Virus record (IMG/VR): IMGVR_UViG_3300030104_003219
Coordinates: 1-31,861 of that record
Source: a virus
Length of the DNA: 31,861 nucleotides
Strand: one strand, 5' to 3'
Shown: positions 5,066-31,861 of the stretch, one piece after another
How the letters are laid out: every line of letters begins with the position of its first letter
Numbering within the stretch: the stretch's first letter is position 1
Made by a program: the position numbers and the translations under genes
The notes under the pieces: generated by a model
Database searches by the model: none
Told to the model about the DNA's origin: nothing
The model's input: only the letters and a program-made list of their open reading frames with translations

Positions 5066-5824
5066 ATGAAAACCTTATTAGCATCTACTCCATTCTTCAT
5101 TGTAAACAAAAATTTATTATACAGTTTAGGTTTAGATGCTAGTATTGTTTTATCGGATCTAATGCAAAAAAAATCATACTTTGAACAAACCCATCAATTA
5201 CAAGGTGGGTTTTTTTATAATACAACTAATACAATAACTTGTAGCACAACTTTGTCTTATTATCAAATAAAACAAGCACTTAAAATACTACAAGAAAAAG
5301 GATATATTGAAATTAAACTTAAAGGTATACCAGCTAAAAAGCATTTTAAAATAATTGAAAACAAGATTGCAAAATATTTAAAAACTAGTAATGAAAATAT
5401 TTACATACAAGAATGCGATAATTTTGTAGTAAATAATAATAAAGAAAAAAGAATAAATAAAAAAGAAGATATTATATTACGCAAAGCAAATTTTATTAAT
5501 GAAGTTAGTTCTTTAGAAAACAAAGAATATATAGAAGAATTTATAGAATATTGGACTGAAGACAATGGCAAAAAGATGAGGTTTGAACTAGAGAAAACAT
5601 GGAATACTAATTTAAGGTATAAGCGTTGGTGTAGAAATCAAAAAAATTTTAGTAGAGGTAGTAGTGCAAATAATATGCCTGACTTTTTAGATAGTGCATA
5701 TTTAAATAGAATTAAAGAAGATCAATCACAGGTAAATAAGTTTTACAAACATTTAGTTGAAAATTGTGGCTACGAAAGGGTAGAAACAGCAACAGGCTAT
5801 ATAAGATACAGGAAAAGAGTATGA
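5066..5824 (+). CDS. phage replication initiation protein (DnaD/replisome organiser type)
   Basis: 252 residues. The N-terminal half is a winged helix (LGLDASIVLSDLMQKK, TTLSYYQIKQALKILQEKGY, IEIKLKGIPAKKHFKI), as in phage O-like and DnaD-like initiators. The C-terminal part carries EFIEYWTEDNGKKMRFELEK followed by NTNLRYKRWCRN, a signature I associate with the C-terminus of Bacteroidetes phage replication proteins. It probably binds the origin and loads a host helicase, since no helicase or polymerase is encoded here. Upstream is a 68-base AT-only leader (4998-5065) with repeated TTATATAAA. Confidence 0.75.
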   Translation: MKTLLASTPFFIVNKNLLYSLGLDASIVLSDLMQKKSYFEQTHQLQGGFFYNTTNTITCSTTLSYYQIKQALKILQEKGYIEIKLKGIPAKKHFKIIENKIAKYLKTSNENIYIQECDNFVVNNNKEKRINKKEDIILRKANFINEVSSLENKEYIEEFIEYWTEDNGKKMRFELEKTWNTNLRYKRWCRNQKNFSRGSSANNMPDFLDSAYLNRIKEDQSQVNKFYKHLVENCGYERVETATGYIRYRKRV

Positions 5825-6234
5825 AAAATAGAAATTTAGTACATAAGGACGATTGGAAAACACCTGAAGATTTTTATAATAAATTAAATGATGAATTTAA
5901 ATTTGATTGCGATCCTTGTCCATATATGCACGATATGAGTTGGTGTGGTTTAGATATAGATTGGGGTTATAGAAATTTTATTAACCCACCTTATAGTAGA
6001 AAATTAAAAGAGGCTTTTATTCTAAAAGCTATAGAAGAAAGTAAAAAAGGTAAATTATGTGTAATGTTACTACCTGTGTCTACAAGTACTAAAATATTTC
6101 ACGAACATATATTACCAAATAAAAAAGAAATTAGATTTATAAAAGGTAGATTAAAATTTAGTGGGTATAATACAAAAGGTGAATATGTAGATAATAAGTG
6201 CGGTATGCACGATAGTATGATAATAATATTTTAA
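5821..6234 (+). CDS. phage DNA N6-adenine methyltransferase (Dam-like)
   Basis: 137 residues from the ATG at 5821, which overlaps the stop of the initiator gene as ATGA; a longer frame upstream is unlikely. The protein opens DDWKTPEDFYNKLNDEF with DCDPCPY, has the catalytic NPPY motif at residues 55-58 (FINPPYSRK), and then a CVMLLPVSTSTKIF strand. This is the pattern of the short phage N6-adenine methylase family (phage_methyltransf/Dam). It likely methylates adenine in phage DNA as protection from restriction, alongside the thymidine modification cassette downstream. Confidence 0.85.
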   Translation: MKNRNLVHKDDWKTPEDFYNKLNDEFKFDCDPCPYMHDMSWCGLDIDWGYRNFINPPYSRKLKEAFILKAIEESKKGKLCVMLLPVSTSTKIFHEHILPNKKEIRFIKGRLKFSGYNTKGEYVDNKCGMHDSMIIIF

Positions 6235-7625: not shown

Positions 7626-7987
7626 AAAAATCAAAAGGAATTGGAGATGATATAGCCAAGTTTACTAAAGCAACAGGAATAGACAAGTTAGCTAAAAAAG
7701 TATTAGGAAATGATTGTGGTTGCGAAGAACGTAGACAGAAACTAAATCAAATGTTTCCAAGATTTAAAAATATAAGACAATTTACAGAAGATGAGATAAA
7801 GATATATGATGAGGTCATACCAATAGTTTTAAAAAACCAAAGAATGACAAAAGAAGAAAAAACAATAATTAATTCTTTGTATAGGGGTGTGTTTGATATA
7901 GATCCTCAATGGAAAAGTTGTGGTCCTTGTAATAAACAAATAATTGATAACCTTGAAAAGGTATATGAAAAGTCTTGTAAAGTATGA
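7622..7987 (+). CDS. conserved Cys-motif phage protein of unknown function
   Basis: 121 residues. It starts KKSKGIGDDIAKFTKATGID, then DCGCEERRQKLNQMFP, and towards the end SCGPCNKQI with a last Cys near the C-terminus. The GIGD...FTKATGI and CGC-E-R-x-x-LN signatures occur in a protein family I have seen in Bacteroidetes phages, always without a function. The two Cys pairs (CGC and CGPC) could bind a metal. Followed by the HNH gene with an ATGA overlap. Confidence 0.7.
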   Translation: MKKSKGIGDDIAKFTKATGIDKLAKKVLGNDCGCEERRQKLNQMFPRFKNIRQFTEDEIKIYDEVIPIVLKNQRMTKEEKTIINSLYRGVFDIDPQWKSCGPCNKQIIDNLEKVYEKSCKV

Positions 7988-8238
7988 AGAAGTATACAAA
8001 AATATATATGAAATATTATAACTACGATATATCAGATTGGATAGCTTGTGAGCATTGTGGCACAACGGCTGTAGACATACATCATATTTCTGGACGTGGT
8101 ATTGGTGGCTCAAATAATAAAGACTTTATAGAAAATCTTATAGCATTGTGTAGAAGTTGTCATATAAAAGCAGAAACAAATAAAGAATTTAACAATTATT
8201 TAAAAGAACAAAATCAATTAAAATTTAAACAAAACTAG
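7984..8238 (+). CDS. HNH endonuclease
   Basis: 84 residues. CEHC (Cys22, Cys25), DIHHI (His33-34), then ENLIALCRSCH (Asn51, Cys56, Cys59, His60) make the zinc site and beta-beta-alpha metal active site of HNH nucleases. In many phages a small HNH protein works with terminase for DNA packaging, usually next to the terminase genes; here it lies about 3.5 kb upstream, separated by the modification cassette. It could instead be a repair, defence or homing-derived nuclease. Confidence 0.8.
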   Translation: MKKYTKIYMKYYNYDISDWIACEHCGTTAVDIHHISGRGIGGSNNKDFIENLIALCRSCHIKAETNKEFNNYLKEQNQLKFKQN

Positions 8239-8239
8239 A

Positions 8240-8821
8240 ATGGAAAAAATAAAAATTAGTAAAGTAAAACCAAATTCTGAAAATCCTAGGATAATAAGAG
8301 GTGAAAAATTTAAACAATTAGTGCAAAGCATTAAAGACTTTCCTGAAATGCTTAAAATTAGACCTATTGTTGTAAACGAAGATTTTGTAGTATTAGGTGG
8401 AAATATGAGGCTAAGAGCCTGTATTGAAGCAGGTATTAAGGAAGTTTACATACAAAAAGTAAATTTATCTAAAGAGAAAGAAAAAGAATTTATTATAAAA
8501 GATAATAGTTCATTTGGAGAATGGGATTGGGATGTATTAGCGAATGAGTGGAATGTAGAAGAATTAAAAGAGTGGGGTGTAAATATACCTAAATGGGACG
8601 ACGTAAATTTTGATAGTGATATAGAAGATACAGGCGACTATGACTACCCAGATGATGAAGATATAGACACAAGCCACGTAAAAATGGTGCAATTGTTTTT
8701 AAACACAAAAACTGAACCTAAATTCAAGCAATACGAATTAAAACTAAGAGAAAAATTTGGAACAGAAAATTTAACTGACACAGTATATTATTGTATTGAA
8801 AAAGCATATGAAAACCTATGA
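8240..8821 (+). CDS. ParB/Srx-fold domain protein beside the modification cassette
   Basis: 193 residues. The N-terminal 90 residues form a ParB-like domain: KISKVKPNSENPRI, LVQSIKDFPEMLKIRPIVV and the ParB box VVLGGNMRLRACIEAG (GGNMRLRA at 53-60). After it come EWDWDVLANEWNVEELKEWG, typical of phage ParB-methylase-type proteins, an Asp-rich linker and a helical C-terminus. ParB-fold proteins can hydrolyse CTP or act as nucleases, and are often encoded beside phage DNA-modifying enzymes. It overlaps the oxygenase start as ATGA, suggesting joint function such as bringing modifying enzymes to DNA; that is inference. Confidence 0.8.
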   Translation: MEKIKISKVKPNSENPRIIRGEKFKQLVQSIKDFPEMLKIRPIVVNEDFVVLGGNMRLRACIEAGIKEVYIQKVNLSKEKEKEFIIKDNSSFGEWDWDVLANEWNVEELKEWGVNIPKWDDVNFDSDIEDTGDYDYPDDEDIDTSHVKMVQLFLNTKTEPKFKQYELKLREKFGTENLTDTVYYCIEKAYENL

Positions 8822-9708
8822 AAAAAATAGTTATAAAACCAAGACTTACTGATAAAGAAACTGATAAATTAAGAGGTGTATTGTTATCTGAAAAAGATTA
8901 TAATACTTTTATAAATTATGATGCAGATATATATTGTGAAGAAACAAATAAATGTATAGCAAAGTTTAGAAAAAAAATAATACCTGCAAACATTGCAGAA
9001 AAAGCTTATGAAAATTTAAAAGATGCAGCACAACATACTAACAACAGAAGTATAGGTAATGGAGATATACATAAATCTAATACAGAAACTACAAGATTAA
9101 AAAAAGATGGCACAATAGCAAATACAAAAAAAGCATCAAAAATAACTAAAAGTGGTATTATAGGTTACTTTGATAGAAACGCAAGATTTCCTTATTGTAG
9201 GCAAACAGCTTTTAATGAAAAACAATTTGAAAAGTTTAAAAAAGCATATCCAATTATAAAATTAGTAGATACTAAATATGCAGAATTAATGCCTGAGCAC
9301 TACGCATTGCAACGAAAAATAGCAGATGAAACAAGTCAAGACTTTGTGATTAAGAATACTGCATTTACAACAGTAACAGTAAACAAAAATTGGCAAACAG
9401 CTGTACACACAGATAAAGGGGATTATGCAAAAGGTTTTGGTAATTTAGTAGTATTAAGAAAAGGCAGGTACACAGGGGGTTATTTTGTTTTGCCAAAATG
9501 GGGTGTAGCTTTTGACATGCAGAATTGTGATTTGTTATTAGTAGATGTTCACCAATGGCATGGCAACACACCTATAAACAAGATAGATGAAGATGCAACA
9601 AGAGTAAGTTTAGTTATGTATTACAGAGAAAATATGATAAGTTGTGGTACAGCAGATGAAGAAGTAAATAGAGCAAAAAACAGAAAAGCAGGATCTAAAT
9701 TAAATTAA
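8818..9708 (+). CDS. TET/JBP-type 2-oxoglutarate/Fe(II) DNA base oxygenase
   Basis: 296 residues. The C-terminal domain has the full double-stranded beta-helix signature of TET/JBP oxygenases: AVHTDKGDY (iron ligands His197 and Asp199), GNLVVLRKGRYTGGYFVLP, LLLVDVHQWHGN (distal His248 or His245), then TRVSLVMYYREN with Arg262 or Arg270 for 2-oxoglutarate. The first 110 residues are a lysine-rich region, perhaps for DNA binding. In known systems these enzymes oxidise the methyl group of T (JBP) or 5-methyl-C (TET) in DNA. The neighbours here (thymine-specific transferase, hmU kinase) point to T as substrate, giving 5-hydroxymethyl-U. No cytosine-C5 methylase is visible. Confidence 0.88.
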   Translation: MKKIVIKPRLTDKETDKLRGVLLSEKDYNTFINYDADIYCEETNKCIAKFRKKIIPANIAEKAYENLKDAAQHTNNRSIGNGDIHKSNTETTRLKKDGTIANTKKASKITKSGIIGYFDRNARFPYCRQTAFNEKQFEKFKKAYPIIKLVDTKYAELMPEHYALQRKIADETSQDFVIKNTAFTTVTVNKNWQTAVHTDKGDYAKGFGNLVVLRKGRYTGGYFVLPKWGVAFDMQNCDLLLVDVHQWHGNTPINKIDEDATRVSLVMYYRENMISCGTADEEVNRAKNRKAGSKLN

Positions 9709-9709
9709 T

Positions 9710-10429
9710 ATGTTAAGTTTTAGGGATTTTTCAAAACAAATAATAGAAACTGGTGACATAGATCCAGACTACATACTAATAAGAGAAAAATGCAAAGAAT
9801 ATGGTTGGAACAAAAAACAAATGTTTAATTGGATATTGCACAAACTTGTAATATATGATAGCTATTCAGAATTACAAGTAATAAATAAAGAAAAAAACAT
9901 ATTAGAGGTAAAGTATGGAACTGAAAGAAGAAAATCTAAAAGGTTTGCAAAAGAATATTTAAACAATATACAAAGAGCATTTATTGACATTAACATTGAA
10001 AAGTTTTTTACACAAAAGGGTTATGTAGTTTTTAATAAAATAAAAACAATAAAAGGTTATGGTTCGTGGGCAGCATGGAAATTTATGGATCTTATAAGTT
10101 GTTGTTATGGTATAGATGTAGATTTTGAAACAATAGATTTTAGAAAGGCTTATACATTTCCTTTAAAGGGTTTGTTGATGATAAACGATTTACCTGAAGA
10201 TGTAAAGTTATTACAAGACACAAAGTTGTATAGTAAGCTTATGCATAATGCAAATAAAATGTTAGAAGGTTTAGAAACAATAAATTCACCTCACAATAAT
10301 AACAAGGGGTTAAGAATAAATGAAGTAGAAACTTTATTGTGTAAATACCATTCATATAAACATAATAAATATAAAGTAGGTCAAGATATAGAACACTTAA
10401 ATAAAAGGTTTAAAAAATGTATAATATAG
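9710..10429 (+). CDS. aGPT-Pplase-like amino acid:DNA (hydroxymethyl-U) transferase
   Basis: 239 residues. Residues around 69-83 (YGTERRKSKRFAKEY) and 113-140 (TIKGYGSWAAWKFMDL, then GIDVDF) match the helix-hairpin-helix DNA-glycosylase-like family named alpha-glutamyl/putrescinyl thymine pyrophosphorylase. Members attach an amino acid or polyamine to activated 5-hydroxymethyl-U in phage DNA. The gene starts one base after the oxygenase stop and overlaps the FAD gene by 13 bases. I assign it by motif pattern and by the neighbouring oxygenase and kinase; sequence search would settle the clade. The amino acid used cannot be read from the sequence. Confidence 0.72.
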   Translation: MLSFRDFSKQIIETGDIDPDYILIREKCKEYGWNKKQMFNWILHKLVIYDSYSELQVINKEKNILEVKYGTERRKSKRFAKEYLNNIQRAFIDINIEKFFTQKGYVVFNKIKTIKGYGSWAAWKFMDLISCCYGIDVDFETIDFRKAYTFPLKGLLMINDLPEDVKLLQDTKLYSKLMHNANKMLEGLETINSPHNNNKGLRINEVETLLCKYHSYKHNKYKVGQDIEHLNKRFKKCII

Positions 10430-11205
10430 TTGGTGCAGGATTAGCAGGATCTATGTTAGCAAAAGATTTTGACAACAAAGGTATAGAGTATAGAATATTT
10501 GATGCAAGATTAGAATTTTCAGCATCTATAATAAGTGAAAACCTATTTAGTGACACCTGGTTAAAAGATGTAAGCTATATAAAAAATTCATTAGATTTTA
10601 TACATAATAATTATAAAGTAGAAAAAAGATTGTTTGTAAATAAAAATATAAAAAAAGAATTATATCATTTACCAATACCAGAAGTATTAAAACAAGACTA
10701 TATAAAAGAAAAAGTTATAAAGGCTACAAAAGAAGGTGTGCAAACAGAAGAAAAATTTTATAAAGGAAAGAATATAATTTGTGCAGGGTTTTTAGCTAAA
10801 AAACTATTTAATTTACCTTATTTAGATGCATTGACAGGTCATGGCTTTTTTATAAAAAAACAAATTAAAGAAGATTATATAAATACTTATAGACCTTATA
10901 CACACGAAAAGCTGATGAATTGGCATAATAATTTATTATGGTATGGAGATAGTACAGCTATAAAACATAATAATTATATAAAGAAAAGAAAAAATTATAT
11001 AAAAAATAGCATAAAAAGATTAAATAAATTAGGAATAAACAAATATGAAAAAATTGTGTATGGTGCAAGACCTATGAACACACAAAACAAAAGACAGGGA
11101 ATGTTAGTTAAAATAAACAATAATAATATAGTTATGAATGGTGGTTGGAAAGATGGTTTAGTAATATACCCTTATTTAATAAGTAAAATATATAAAATGT
11201 TATGA
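10417..11205 (+). CDS. FAD-dependent oxidoreductase/lyase of base hypermodification
   Basis: 262 residues, short for a DAO-like flavoprotein. The N-terminal Rossmann motif is YNIVGAGLAGSMLAKDF with the acidic strand end YRIFDA; a second nucleotide-contact region follows (KNIICAGFLAKK), and the C-terminus reads GARPMNTQ then NGGWKDGLVIYPYL, as in glycine-oxidase-like proteins. In studied thymidine hypermodification pathways a flavin lyase cleaves a glycine already attached to the base, leaving 5-aminomethyl-dU. Position between the transferase and the kinase, with overlaps on both sides, supports that role here. The exact reaction is inferred. Confidence 0.75.
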   Translation: MYNIVGAGLAGSMLAKDFDNKGIEYRIFDARLEFSASIISENLFSDTWLKDVSYIKNSLDFIHNNYKVEKRLFVNKNIKKELYHLPIPEVLKQDYIKEKVIKATKEGVQTEEKFYKGKNIICAGFLAKKLFNLPYLDALTGHGFFIKKQIKEDYINTYRPYTHEKLMNWHNNLLWYGDSTAIKHNNYIKKRKNYIKNSIKRLNKLGINKYEKIVYGARPMNTQNKRQGMLVKINNNNIVMNGGWKDGLVIYPYLISKIYKML

Positions 11206-11717
11206 TTATAGCAATAGGTGGAGAACCAGCAACTGGTAAAACTACAATAATGAAAAGCATAATAAAAGACTATATGCCTTTTAAAACATTTAAGTATGGT
11301 TTAGTAAGAGGAATAACAAATGATAAGTTAAATATTGTAGGTATCTATGACAAAAGCCTTTTTAGTGGAACTGATAAACTTTCTATGGCTGTGCAGCCTT
11401 ATTTCCTTAAATTTGTCGAAAAGTGTTCTAACGAACTAATATTGTTTGAGGGTGATAGATTATTTAATCAAAGTTTGTTTAATAAAGTTGATTGTAAAAT
11501 AATAGTAATAAAAGCAAACAAAGAAGAAATACACAAAAGACATATACAAAGAAAAGACAAACAAACAGAAAAGTTTATAAAAGCCAAAAGAACTAAAATA
11601 GAAAACATAATACAAAAAAATAAAGTAACAATATTTAGTAACGATAATAAAGAAGAACAAGAACAAATAATAAAACATATAAAAACTCTAATAAATGAAC
11701 AAAACCGAACACACTAA
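11202..11717 (+). CDS. P-loop 5-hydroxymethyl-uracil DNA kinase
   Basis: 171 residues. Walker A is GGEPATGKTT (residues 6-15). The motifs FSGTDKLSMAVQP (54-66) and LFEGDRLF (81-88) are those of the kinase family found in phage hypermodification operons, where it phosphorylates the hydroxymethyl group of 5-hmU in DNA so that the transferase can displace it. A lid region rich in Lys and Arg (KRHIQRKDKQTEK) follows. The start is an ATGA overlap with the FAD gene; the end overlaps the small terminase gene by 23 bases, so modification and packaging genes are in one transcript. Confidence 0.82.
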   Translation: MIIAIGGEPATGKTTIMKSIIKDYMPFKTFKYGLVRGITNDKLNIVGIYDKSLFSGTDKLSMAVQPYFLKFVEKCSNELILFEGDRLFNQSLFNKVDCKIIVIKANKEEIHKRHIQRKDKQTEKFIKAKRTKIENIIQKNKVTIFSNDNKEEQEQIIKHIKTLINEQNRTH

Positions 11718-12072
11718 AAAAGCAATGTTAGATGCCTTAGAAAAATCTTTAGGTATAGTAACAACAGCTTGTAAAAAAGTAGGGATTGGTAGAACTACAT
11801 ACTATGATTGGTATAATACAGATCCTGAATTTAAAGCAAAGGTTGATGATTTGAAAAATGTAGCATTAGACTTTGCAGAAAGTCAACTACATAAACAAAT
11901 ACAAGATAATTCTACTTCAGCAACTATATTCTACTTAAAAACACAAGGAAAGAAAAGAGGTTATGTAGAAAGACAGGAATTAGATCTATCAAGTGGTAAC
12001 GAACAAATAAACAAAATAGAAATTGAAATTGTTGAGCCTAAAGGGAACAGTAGTTCTCAAGAAAAATCTTGA
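11695..12072 (+). CDS. terS: terminase small subunit
   Basis: 125 residues. The N-terminal half is a DNA-binding helix-turn-helix: LGIVTTACKKVGIGRTTYYDWYNTDPEF, typical of phage small terminase subunits, followed by helices (LDFAESQLHKQIQDNSTSATIFYLKTQGKKRGYV) with the IFYLKTQGK motif common in this family. It recognises the packaging start and forms a ring that regulates the large subunit. It lies directly upstream of terL with a 50-base overlap. Confidence 0.88.
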   Translation: MNKTEHTKKAMLDALEKSLGIVTTACKKVGIGRTTYYDWYNTDPEFKAKVDDLKNVALDFAESQLHKQIQDNSTSATIFYLKTQGKKRGYVERQELDLSSGNEQINKIEIEIVEPKGNSSSQEKS

Positions 12073-13192
12073 TGCAAGTACAAGAATTGTAGTTAATCAG
12101 GGTGGTACAAGAAGTAGTAAAACCTATAGTTTAGCACAATTAATTATACTGAAAGCATTACAAACAAAGGGAAAGGTATATACTATTTGTAGGAAAACTT
12201 TACCAGCTTTGAAAGGTACTGCGTACAGAGATTTTTTTTCTATATTGGAAAGTCATAATTTATACAATCCTGAAAATCATAATAAATCAGAACTTACTTA
12301 TAAATTAAATGGAAATGAAATAGAGTTTATTTCAGTTGATATGCCACAAAAAATACGTGGAAGAAAAAGAAATATACTTTGGCTCAATGAGGCAAATGAG
12401 TTTGATTTTGAATCGTGGGTTCAGCTAAGTCTAAGAACAACTGAAAATATTTATTTAGACTTTAATCCTTCAGATCCATATTCCTGGATATATGACAATG
12501 TTATAAATAGAGAAGATTGCACTTTTATTAAATCAACTTATTTAGATAATCCTTTTTTACCTGAAGAAACTATAAAAGAAATAGAAAGGCTAAGGGATTT
12601 AGATTCTAACTATTGGAAAATATATGGATTAGGGGATATGGCACAACCTACTGAAACTATATTCAGACAATTTGAAATATGTAATAACGTACCTGAACAA
12701 GCACAATTAATAGCAATGGGAATGGATTTTGGTTATAGTAACGATCCTACAGCATTAGTTGAAGTCTTTAAATTAAACGATAATTTGTACTTAAATGAAG
12801 TTTTGTATAGTAAAGGTCTAACAAACCAAGATATTGCAGCAGAGCTAAGAAAACACAGCATTACAAGGCAAATAGAAATAATAGGGGATAGTGCTGAGCC
12901 AAAGTCAATAGAAGAAATAAATAGATTAGGTTTTAACGTAAAACCAGCAAAGAAAGGTGCAGACAGTATTAATATGGGTATAGACATTTTAAGAAGATAC
13001 AAGATCCATATTACGAAAAGCAGCACAAATACAATTAATGAATTTAAGTTTTATAAATGGCTAGTAGATAAAAATGGTAAGGTAATAAACAAACCTGCAA
13101 CTAATCAAGCAGACCACATAATTGATAGTGTTAGGTACGTAGCTTTAAACAAATTAACTACTAATTATTCAGGTAAGTATTATATTCTATGA
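12023..13192 (+). CDS. terL: terminase large subunit
   Basis: 389 residues. Walker A is NQGGTRSSKTYS (Lys33), Walker B NILWLNEANEF (near 117-127), with a coupling DFNPSDP segment. The C-terminal RNase H-like nuclease has the acidic triad GMDFGYSNDP (Asp235), IIGDSAEPK (Asp289) and ADHIIDSVRY (Asp364/Asp368). It is the packaging motor and DNA cutter. No ATG is available; TTG at 12023 or at 12029/12032, inside terS, gives the normal N-terminal length before Walker A. Promoter A lies right at its 3' end. Confidence 0.93.
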   Translation: MKLLSLKGTVVLKKNLDASTRIVVNQGGTRSSKTYSLAQLIILKALQTKGKVYTICRKTLPALKGTAYRDFFSILESHNLYNPENHNKSELTYKLNGNEIEFISVDMPQKIRGRKRNILWLNEANEFDFESWVQLSLRTTENIYLDFNPSDPYSWIYDNVINREDCTFIKSTYLDNPFLPEETIKEIERLRDLDSNYWKIYGLGDMAQPTETIFRQFEICNNVPEQAQLIAMGMDFGYSNDPTALVEVFKLNDNLYLNEVLYSKGLTNQDIAAELRKHSITRQIEIIGDSAEPKSIEEINRLGFNVKPAKKGADSINMGIDILRRYKIHITKSSTNTINEFKFYKWLVDKNGKVINKPATNQADHIIDSVRYVALNKLTTNYSGKYYIL

Positions 13193-30558: not shown

Positions 30559-30751
30559 AGACAAAAAGCTAGGCGATCTAAAAAGGTGGTCTGCAAAAAG
30601 AACAATTGGTGGTGCAATAGTTTTATTTGCTTTGCAATCAATGAACAATGGAATAAGTTGGGAGGGCATTTTATTATGTTTTATAGGTGTTCTTCCTCTT
30701 TGTCTTTCTATGTTTGAATCTTCAGTATGCAAATGTAAATGCAAAAAGTGA
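30515..30751 (+). CDS. two-helix holin candidate (lysis block B)
   Basis: 78 residues: a basic N-terminal helix (LLQNLDITTIFKDKKLGDLK), then KRTIGGAIVLFALQSMNNGI (helix 1) and ISWEGILLCFIGVLPLCLSMF (helix 2), and a Cys/Lys-rich tail (CKCKCKK). Topology and place, downstream of the amidase, indicate a class II-like holin. It occupies the position of the 3TM holin in block A, directly before the metallophosphoesterase gene, with which it overlaps by 13 bases. Confidence 0.6.
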   Translation: MKKLLQNLDITTIFKDKKLGDLKRWSAKRTIGGAIVLFALQSMNNGISWEGILLCFIGVLPLCLSMFESSVCKCKCKK

Positions 30752-31479
30752 AAAAAGACTATAGATTAAGACTTACAAAATCTGAACACGATCTTATAAA
30801 AGAAATGAGAATTTCTCAAGGTGGTGTTGTAAATAATGTATTAATTATAGGTGATTTGCACGAACCTTTTTCACTTGATTCTTATTTAGAGTTTTGCGTA
30901 TCTAAATATGAACAATTTGATTGCACAGAAGTTATCTTTATTGGTGATATAATTGATAATCATTATTCTAGCTATCACGAAACCAATGCAGATGGCATGG
31001 GGGGTGCTGATGAATTAGAGTATGCAATAAAAAGAATAGCAAGGTGGTATAAAGCTTTTCCAATAGCAACCGTAATCATAGGCAATCACGATAGAATGGT
31101 GATGCGTAAGGCACAAACGTCAGCAATACCAAGTAAATGGATTAAAAGCTATAAAGATGTCTTAGAGGTGTTTAATTGGAACTTTGTAGAAAGGTATGTA
31201 AAAGATAATGTACAATACTTGCACGGAGAGGGTGGAACAGCAAAGACTAAGTGTAAAGCAGATATGATGAATACAGTACAAGGACATTTGCACACACAAG
31301 CATATTGTGAACACTTTGTAGGTCAAAATTTTAGAGTGTACGGAATGCAAGTTGGTTGTGGAATAGATCACGAAAGTTATGCAATGGCATATGCTAAATA
31401 TGGCAAGAAACCTGCAATTGGTTGTAGTGTTGTGTTGAACAATGGTAAATTGCCTTTAAACTTATTAATGCAACTATAA
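30739..31479 (+). CDS. calcineurin-like metallophosphoesterase, copy B
   Basis: 246 residues, all motifs present: GDLHEPF, GDIIDNH, GNHDRM, HGEGG and GHLHTQ. It is clearly homologous to copy A (1837-2601) along its whole length, including the RLRLTK-EHDLIK opening and the CGVD/CGID and NLLM endings, but well diverged (about half or more identical). Here an ATG start is available inside the holin gene. The function in the phage is unknown; substrates of related enzymes range from DNA ends to nucleotides. Confidence 0.88.
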   Translation: MQKVKKDYRLRLTKSEHDLIKEMRISQGGVVNNVLIIGDLHEPFSLDSYLEFCVSKYEQFDCTEVIFIGDIIDNHYSSYHETNADGMGGADELEYAIKRIARWYKAFPIATVIIGNHDRMVMRKAQTSAIPSKWIKSYKDVLEVFNWNFVERYVKDNVQYLHGEGGTAKTKCKADMMNTVQGHLHTQAYCEHFVGQNFRVYGMQVGCGIDHESYAMAYAKYGKKPAIGCSVVLNNGKLPLNLLMQL

Positions 31480-31485
31480 AAAAAA

Positions 31486-31563
31486 GGGGTAAAATATTAG
31501 CATGTTATCCTTACTAATAAATTACCCCCAAAGGTAGTAAAGTAATGAAAAAAGAAACTACCT
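31486..31563. ncRNA. conserved two-hairpin intergenic element, copy B
   Basis: Hairpin 1 pairs GGGGTAA (31486-31492) with TTACCCC (31522-31528); on the minus strand it is followed by at least eight T, so it can terminate the leftward operon. Hairpin 2 pairs AGGTAGT (31532-31538) with ACTACCT (31557-31563) around an 18-base loop that is identical to the matching part of copy A. Base changes in the stems relative to copy A are compensated. The loop holds an ATG that would open a tiny frame (MKKETT...) in both copies. Confidence 0.55.
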
Positions 31564-31834
31564 ATAATGTCACCCCTTTTAATACTTCTTTTTCTCTATT
31601 AAATTGTGTATAGTCATAATCACTTTGAATTAAATAATACCTTTTAAATTTCTTTATATCACCATACATATTTTTTCTACTAATCCAAAAACTTTCTATT
31701 CTGTGACCATCATTTACTAAATCTCTAATAACTCCCTGCAAATCTAAAATTAATAATTTCTGCATACATTCTAAGGTGGTTATGCTAAAATCTTCTTCCT
31801 GAAAGTATTTTAGTAATTGTTCTTTTTGTGTCAT
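31562..31834 (-). CDS. HTH_39-like DNA-binding protein, copy B
   Basis: 90 residues, same length as copy A at 2690-2962. The first 34 residues are identical (MTQKEQLLKYFQEEDFSITT and on to LDLQG), and the rest differs at about 15 positions (for example VIRDLVNDG for IIRNLKQDG). It is read leftward, and the sequence ends right after its upstream region. If the window is joined at the 77-base repeat, this gene would be the last of the leftward operon that begins at 4242. Confidence 0.75.
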   Translation of the reverse strand: MTQKEQLLKYFQEEDFSITTLECMQKLLILDLQGVIRDLVNDGHRIESFWISRKNMYGDIKKFKRYYLIQSDYDYTQFNREKEVLKGVTL

Positions 31835-31861
31835 TTTATTTATTTAATTGGATAACATTTT
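31785..31861. repeat. 77-base exact repeat at the window end, copy 2
   Basis: The last 77 bases of the window are the same as 2913-2989. Joining at this repeat gives a circle of 28,872 bases in which the leftward operon is intact. Confidence 0.9.

Follow-up and report, generated by a model that had tools for sequence, protein, structure and literature searches.

Studied thymidine hypermodification begins with 5-hydroxymethyl-dUMP from the nucleotide pool (PMC6449724), and the locus described here raises the question of whether a phage can begin instead with ordinary thymine already in its DNA. The locus lies in virus record IMGVR_UViG_3300030104_003219 (31,861 bp, 28.8% GC; hereafter the window, meaning the whole stretch that was analyzed), where five open reading frames (ORFs) on the + strand occupy positions 8240-11717, just upstream of the terminase genes. 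An earlier note, made from the letters alone, had proposed a thymidine hypermodification system started by a TET/JBP oxygenase. Judging from homology and from the comparison of related loci, we consider it probable that the five genes form a post-replicative thymine hypermodification cassette, the end product of which would be 5-aminomethyl-deoxyuridine (5-aminomethyl-dU).

8240..8821, + strand, ParB-fold protein, 193 aa
8818..9708, + strand, TET/JBP 2-oxoglutarate/Fe(II) oxygenase (TET), 296 aa
9710..10429, + strand, amino acid:DNA transferase (ADDT, aGPT-Pplase2 type), 239 aa
10417..11205, + strand, FAD-dependent enzyme, flavin-dependent lyase homologue (flavin enzyme), 262 aa
11202..11717, + strand, P-loop kinase of the 5-hydroxymethyluracil (5-hmU) DNA kinase type, 171 aa
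11695-12072, terminase small subunit gene
12023-13192, terminase large subunit (TerL) gene

Gene content and enzyme assignments

The five genes are tightly packed, as the earlier note had described: the ORFs overlap by 4, 13 and 4 bp, TET and ADDT are separated by 1 bp, and the 3' end of the kinase gene runs 23 bp into the terminase small subunit gene. All of the motifs quoted in that note were located in the five proteins, i.e., H197-T-D199, H248-GN, RVSLVMYYR with R262, GYGSWAAWKFMDL, GAGLAGS in the flavin enzyme, and GEPATGKTT, GTDKLSMAV and FEGDRL in the kinase. The phage size of 29 kb that it gave is too small for a record of 31,861 bp.

The oxygenase matches Pfam Tet_JBP (PF12851) with E=3.6e-29 and 101.5 bits, well above the cut-off of 34.9, and residues H197, D199, H248 and R262 are invariant across 22 aligned sequences. 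H197, D199 and H248 are the Fe ligands, and R262 is probably the 2-oxoglutarate-binding residue. The AlphaFold2 model (predicted local distance difference test, pLDDT, 83) superimposes best on TET2 (Z 21.6, rmsd 3.6, 263 aligned), followed by NgTet1 (Z 20.0), CMD1 (18.6) and CcTet (18.0), and the remaining 2-oxoglutarate oxygenases score at most 14.8, with AlkB/FTO lower. This TET-fold enzyme is predicted to oxidize a 5-methylpyrimidine in DNA. The preceding ParB-fold protein scores 25.6 bits against ParB_N, slightly below the Pfam cut-off of 26.3, and matches several PHROG ParB families at about 1e-23 (phrog_498, 3.5e-25; phrog_620, 3e-23). Its gene adjoins TET even in relatives that carry neither ADDT nor kinase, and the protein is a probable DNA-targeting partner of the oxygenase.

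The ADDT exceeds the cut-off of 26.2 for PF18724 (E=5.9e-8, 33.2 bits) and matches phrog_6364 at 2e-21. A profile of its clade, termed short below, matches two solved structures, PDB 25qc (4.4e-16) and PDB 8z2m, a ‘Glycinyltransferase’ (2.8e-10), and in the alignments the blocks KGxGxWxxxKxxD and ExETLLCKxxSxxxxxY are common to the ADDT and both structures. The enzyme would thus be expected to transfer glycine to phosphorylated hydroxymethyl-U. The flavin enzyme matches PDB 8z2o, a ‘Flavin-dependent lyase’, over its full length (E=8.5e-8, residues 4-258), including a conserved C-terminal GG-K-G segment; PDB 8z79 and phrog_16743 (1.5e-9) were also matched. Flavin binding and lyase chemistry are suggested by this match, and GAGLAGS is present. 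PDB 8z2o is close in sequence to ORF10 of Pseudomonas phage Ab18, which directly follows the Ab18 ADDT, and the identity of the window proteins to their Pseudomonas phage homologues is about 22-25%.

The kinase matches Ploopntkinase3 (PF18751) with E=0.009 and 16.0 bits, below the cut-off of 27, and phrog_800 at 1.1e-10. When its profile was compared by hhalign with the profile of actinophage ‘5-hmU DNA kinase’ proteins, the probability was 99.3% (E=7.6e-21, 164 columns), and the motifs GxP..GK, FxGTDxLS, EGxR and RxxR...Q are common to the kinase and the annotated 5-hmU DNA kinases. The kinase model (pLDDT 93) has a nucleotide/nucleoside kinase fold with a best Z of 13.3. Profile searches had been named in the earlier note as a possible refutation; they did not place the four enzymes in unrelated families, and the assignments were upheld by Pfam for TET and ADDT, by PDB for the flavin enzyme and by hhalign for the kinase.

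Source of the hydroxymethyl group

The absence of a thymidylate-synthase-like enzyme, stated in the earlier note, was confirmed by profile searches of the 31.9-kb record. No match was found to PF00303, which covers thymidylate synthase (TS) and the pyrimidine hydroxymethylases, or to PF02511 (ThyX), and the same PF00303 search detects the TS-type gene of phage Ab18. Because the window has neither TS nor ThyX, the TET oxygenase is the sole visible source of the hydroxymethyl group. The production of hydroxymethyl-U in DNA by the oxygenase is supported on these grounds, and thymine would be the simplest substrate. Nucleotide-level production of hydroxymethyl-dU was considered for the window and is not supported by any PF00303 or PF02511 match. 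Action of TET on phage-made 5-methylcytosine (5mC) is likewise not supported, there being no match to PF00145 (C5-cytosine methyltransferase, C5-MTase) in the record, nor is glycosylation, there being no match to PF20691 (TET-associated glycosyltransferase, TAGT) in the window. Among ADDT-bearing records, a TAGT match was seen in Cr30 only, and it is sub-threshold. Consistently, TS is absent from all 21 ADDT-bearing records of at least 25 kb, and C5-MTase exceeds its cut-off in two of these (G003 and G021).

Conservation of the cassette and exchange of its middle module

Viral contigs were scanned with TET, which yielded 80 loci, and the other genes were found by profiles built from the window proteins. 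The identical gene set and order was found again in viral contigs. Among 57 loci reaching from TET to TerL, ADDT and kinase occur together in 46 and are both missing in 11, and neither is ever found alone; several ADDT-less loci have a TAGT instead. Of the 38 TET-to-kinase cassettes from the viral-contig scan and the window that are intact and non-redundant, 32 encode a class II glutamine amidotransferase, four the flavin enzyme and two neither; none encodes both (P=2e-4 under independence of the two). The amidotransferase is thus the majority variant (about 50 loci, e.g., L018:8888-9902, L054 and L033). It sits, with or without a GNAT acetyltransferase, which often follows it, between TET and an ADDT of a long clade. 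The protein passes Pfam cut-offs (PF13537, 9.6e-13), starts with Met-Cys-Gly in 51 of 51 sequences and has the blocks HNRYxTSGD, NNQP, FNG and NDG invariant (at least 98% of the 51 sequences); neither the amidotransferase nor the ADDT of this variant has a sequence match in PDB. In three loci (L059-L061) ParB, TET, ADDT and kinase stand alone in about 2.7 kb, with ADDT the sole gene between TET and kinase. The earlier note had regarded a set of about 3.5 kb as unusually small, and these loci and the similar size of other kin cassettes do not bear this out.

The ADDT-flavin block is exchanged for the amidotransferase and second ADDT clade with gene-precise breakpoints, while TET and kinase are unchanged. 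Between L054 (amidotransferase type) and L050 (flavin type), DNA identity is 89.7% from the ParB side to a few bases from the TET stop, the middle does not align, and 95.8% identity resumes near the kinase start. The same pattern was observed for L093/L028 and L093/L033, and the 85-92% alignment of the window with L013 ends 5 bases past the TET stop. The ADDT tree splits into short and long clades with 100/99 support, the flavin enzyme pairing with the short and the amidotransferase with the long clade in the surveyed phages, and the TET and kinase trees mix both types. These observations suggest that the two blocks may be alternative routes to an amine on phosphorylated hydroxymethyl-U.

The profile scan also recovered additional flavin-type members and distant cassettes. 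In four of the latter (L118-L121) TET and ADDT are kept together in other gene orders, such as ParB-ADDT-FAD-kinase-TET in L121. Such repeated association in varied orders would be expected of a single pathway. One cassette (L118:347-5675) reads ParB-TET-ADDT-319-aa protein-252-aa protein-second ADDT-kinase, which suggests yet another decoration, and in two others the position of the usual kinase beside ADDT and TET is occupied by another kind of P-loop protein (L119:4285-4800, L120:3871-4401). Two tandem TET genes, followed by a 328-aa protein, ADDT and kinase, were observed at L081:504-2467.

Proposed pathway and alternatives

Gene content, homology, intact catalytic residues, ADDT-kinase pairing, module exchange and the lack of TS, ThyX and C5-MTase genes were computed directly, and every reaction is inferred. 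Under the proposed pathway, the oxygenase, with the ParB-fold protein as its probable guide, would hydroxylate thymine in DNA at the 5-methyl group, yielding 5-hydroxymethyl-U. The kinase, judging by homology, would phosphorylate the new hydroxyl. The ADDT would then swap the phosphate for an amino acid, most likely glycine, to give Nalpha-glycinyl-thymine, and the flavin enzyme would cleave the glycinyl group to leave 5-aminomethyl-dU. This is the likely product because the transferase and flavin enzyme are kin to the PDB-solved ‘Glycinyltransferase’ and ‘Flavin-dependent lyase’. The modification would protect the genome against host nucleases and other bacterial enzymes. In sister phages the last two steps would be replaced by the amidotransferase and the other ADDT clade, with or without GNAT, probably placing an amine on the same carbon from another donor. 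The amidotransferase module might most simply supply ammonia, a role that we put forward with reserve. More broadly, and tentatively, marine Bacteroidota-type phages may carry a TET-kinase chassis with interchangeable amination modules, either glycine transfer plus flavin lyase or a stand-alone class II glutamine amidotransferase whose ammonia would be used by a second ADDT clade, N-acetylation being optional. Either module would lead from thymine in DNA to 5-aminomethyl-dU.

The order of events given in the earlier note (oxidation in DNA, phosphorylation, amino acid transfer, flavin-based trimming) is the pathway to which the homologies point, although thymine rather than 5mC as its start is not proven. 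Host-made 5mC could be the substrate, in which case TET would produce 5-hydroxymethylcytosine, and the kinase, ADDT and flavin enzyme would convert it to an aminated cytosine. We regard this as unlikely, but several observations favor it and weigh against thymine. The closest solved relatives of the oxygenase, TET2, NgTet1, CMD1 and CcTet, are best known as 5mC enzymes, and in Methylophilales phage Melnitz a C5-MTase gene lies immediately before TET, with a related kinase nearby. Furthermore, the aspartate at +3 of the HxD motif (H197-x-D199-x-x-D202) is common to the window and Melnitz TETs and lies at a position that in NgTet1 contacts the cytosine amino group. Because D202 is also found in the Melnitz TET beside a C5-MTase, the sequence leaves the choice between thymine and cytosine undecided; D202 and its neighboring residues do not track the presence or absence of a C5-MTase in the phages. 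The scarcity of C5-MTase genes in the window and in the long ADDT-bearing records argues for thymine, as does the kinship of the transferase and flavin enzyme to thymidine-pathway enzymes, and the TET relatives with TAGT in place of ADDT likewise lack a C5-MTase.

Two further points bear against a thymine pathway ending in 5-aminomethyl-dU: the kinase and flavin proteins fall under Pfam cut-offs, their support coming from PHROG, PDB and profile-profile matches, and, at so low an identity to the Pseudomonas phage homologues, an amino acid other than glycine might be the donor. The ADDT and flavin enzyme may then use that amino acid or stop elsewhere, so that the final base differs from 5-aminomethyl-dU. 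The dispensability of the flavin gene, illustrated by L059-L061, which retain TET, ADDT and kinase without it, agrees with such an outcome. We nevertheless consider it rather improbable, since the solved lyase aligns over the full length of the flavin enzyme, its C-terminal segment included, and the ADDT-then-flavin order is that of phage Ab18. To our knowledge, there is no direct chemistry for any protein of this clade, and the genes might in principle serve something other than DNA hypermodification, such as RNA or protein modification, or be unrelated genes sitting together. This is very improbable given that the clustering persists in widely different phages and in varied gene arrangements, that ADDT and kinase are obligately paired and that the module exchange is exact.

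Relation to known systems

Kinetoplastid JBP1 and JBP2 act on thymine. The window TET shares its fold and HxD...H...R catalytic residues with eukaryotic TET and Naegleria NgTet1, which differ from it in acting on 5mC rather than, probably, thymine. Thymidine hypermodification pathways are known from YuA/M6/PaMx11-type Pseudomonas phages, from work by Lee (2018, 2021) and Wen (2024) that is cited in PMC11946847 and PMC12783734. As in the window, an ADDT is directly followed by a flavin-dependent enzyme, both homologous to the solved enzymes, and a DNA base kinase takes part (PMC6449724). Unlike the TET-headed window, which has no TS-type gene, these phages make 5-hydroxymethyl-dU with a TS-type enzyme as a nucleotide that is incorporated by the polymerase; phage Ab18, for example, combines ADDT, flavin enzyme and GNAT with a TS-type gene.

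The ParB/TET/aGPT-Pplase2/kinase set has already been annotated in Rhodococcus phage Tonitrus (PMC11955845) and likewise in Gordonia phages (Wooper, CaiB group). These four families occur in the same order as in the window, upstream of the terminase gene, and are annotated as a thymidine hypermodification system, but TET belongs to a divergent clade (phrog_6059 versus phrog_24024) and the fifth gene, encoding a Rossmann-like protein, follows the kinase. In the Gordonia and Rhodococcus cassettes (L006:3054-3926, L009:3761-4642) the fifth gene, labelled ‘hypothetical’, has the Rossmann motif GMGWLG at its start and may encode a very divergent oxidoreductase. Wooper gp5 and Tonitrus gp8 were considered as divergent flavin lyases and rejected, as their match to the flavin-lyase profile is not significant (E ~0.2).

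Systems of TET and TAGT (Acadian, P12024L) have the same TET family, often near terminase, and Acadian also has ParB and kinase; they differ from the window in that the hydroxymethyl base is presumably glycosylated. The Mycobacterium phage Acadian locus (L010, 1-3588) reads ParB-TET-TAGT-PIG-L deacetylase-kinase ahead of terminase, a glycosyl version in which the kinase is retained and accompanied by a deacetylase-like enzyme.

The set proposed in the earlier note is confirmed, but given the annotated sets of Tonitrus and Wooper the proposal of a TET-started system is not new. Iyer et al. 2013 reportedly predicted hypermodification starting from TET-made hydroxymethyl pyrimidines. That work is cited in PMC6449724 as one source of gene-cluster predictions. 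A literature search for phage systems combining TET and amidotransferase found none, the key earlier papers lying outside that search. Provisionally, the combination of TET with a flavin lyase, the amidotransferase alternative and the exact swap between a conserved TET and kinase are new.

A cassette that begins at ordinary thymine in DNA could work while leaving the cellular nucleotide pool unchanged. It would also be a case in which the product of a prokaryotic TET/JBP enzyme enters amination instead of demethylation or glycosylation. The natural swaps of the middle module between near-identical TET and kinase genes offer a ready comparison of the roles of the transferase modules. Glutamine-dependent amination of a DNA base, if true, would be new DNA chemistry and a new route to amino-functionalized DNA.

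Host and genomic surroundings

For the window TerL, the closest sequences come from Flavobacterium phages and from the record of an uncultured phage in human faeces. For the window TET, the closest among named phages are those of Nonlabens phage P12024L and Pelagibacter phage HTVC112P (about 45%). Given these nearest relatives, a marine Bacteroidota host is plausible. Genome contigs queried with TET gave 73 pattern matches, among which no relative was confirmed and no host or prophage link was obtained. Defence-system models had no match among the five cassette proteins, nor did Rfam give a match.

The record has a second DNA modification gene, a Dam-type N6-adenine methyltransferase at 5821-6234 (PF05869, 5.4e-19; PADLOC orphan MTase). 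Both ends of the record (1864-2989 and 30751-31861) carry a version of a 1.14-kb stretch, with about 70% identity between the two, that contains a calcineurin-like phosphoesterase gene and a small ORF whose product starts MTQKEQLLKYF. The divergence is too great for a terminal repeat; the record may have two related modules or be a mixed assembly. A small HNH endonuclease gene (7984-8238) lies directly upstream of the ParB gene and is retained in several flavin-type relatives (L012, L050).

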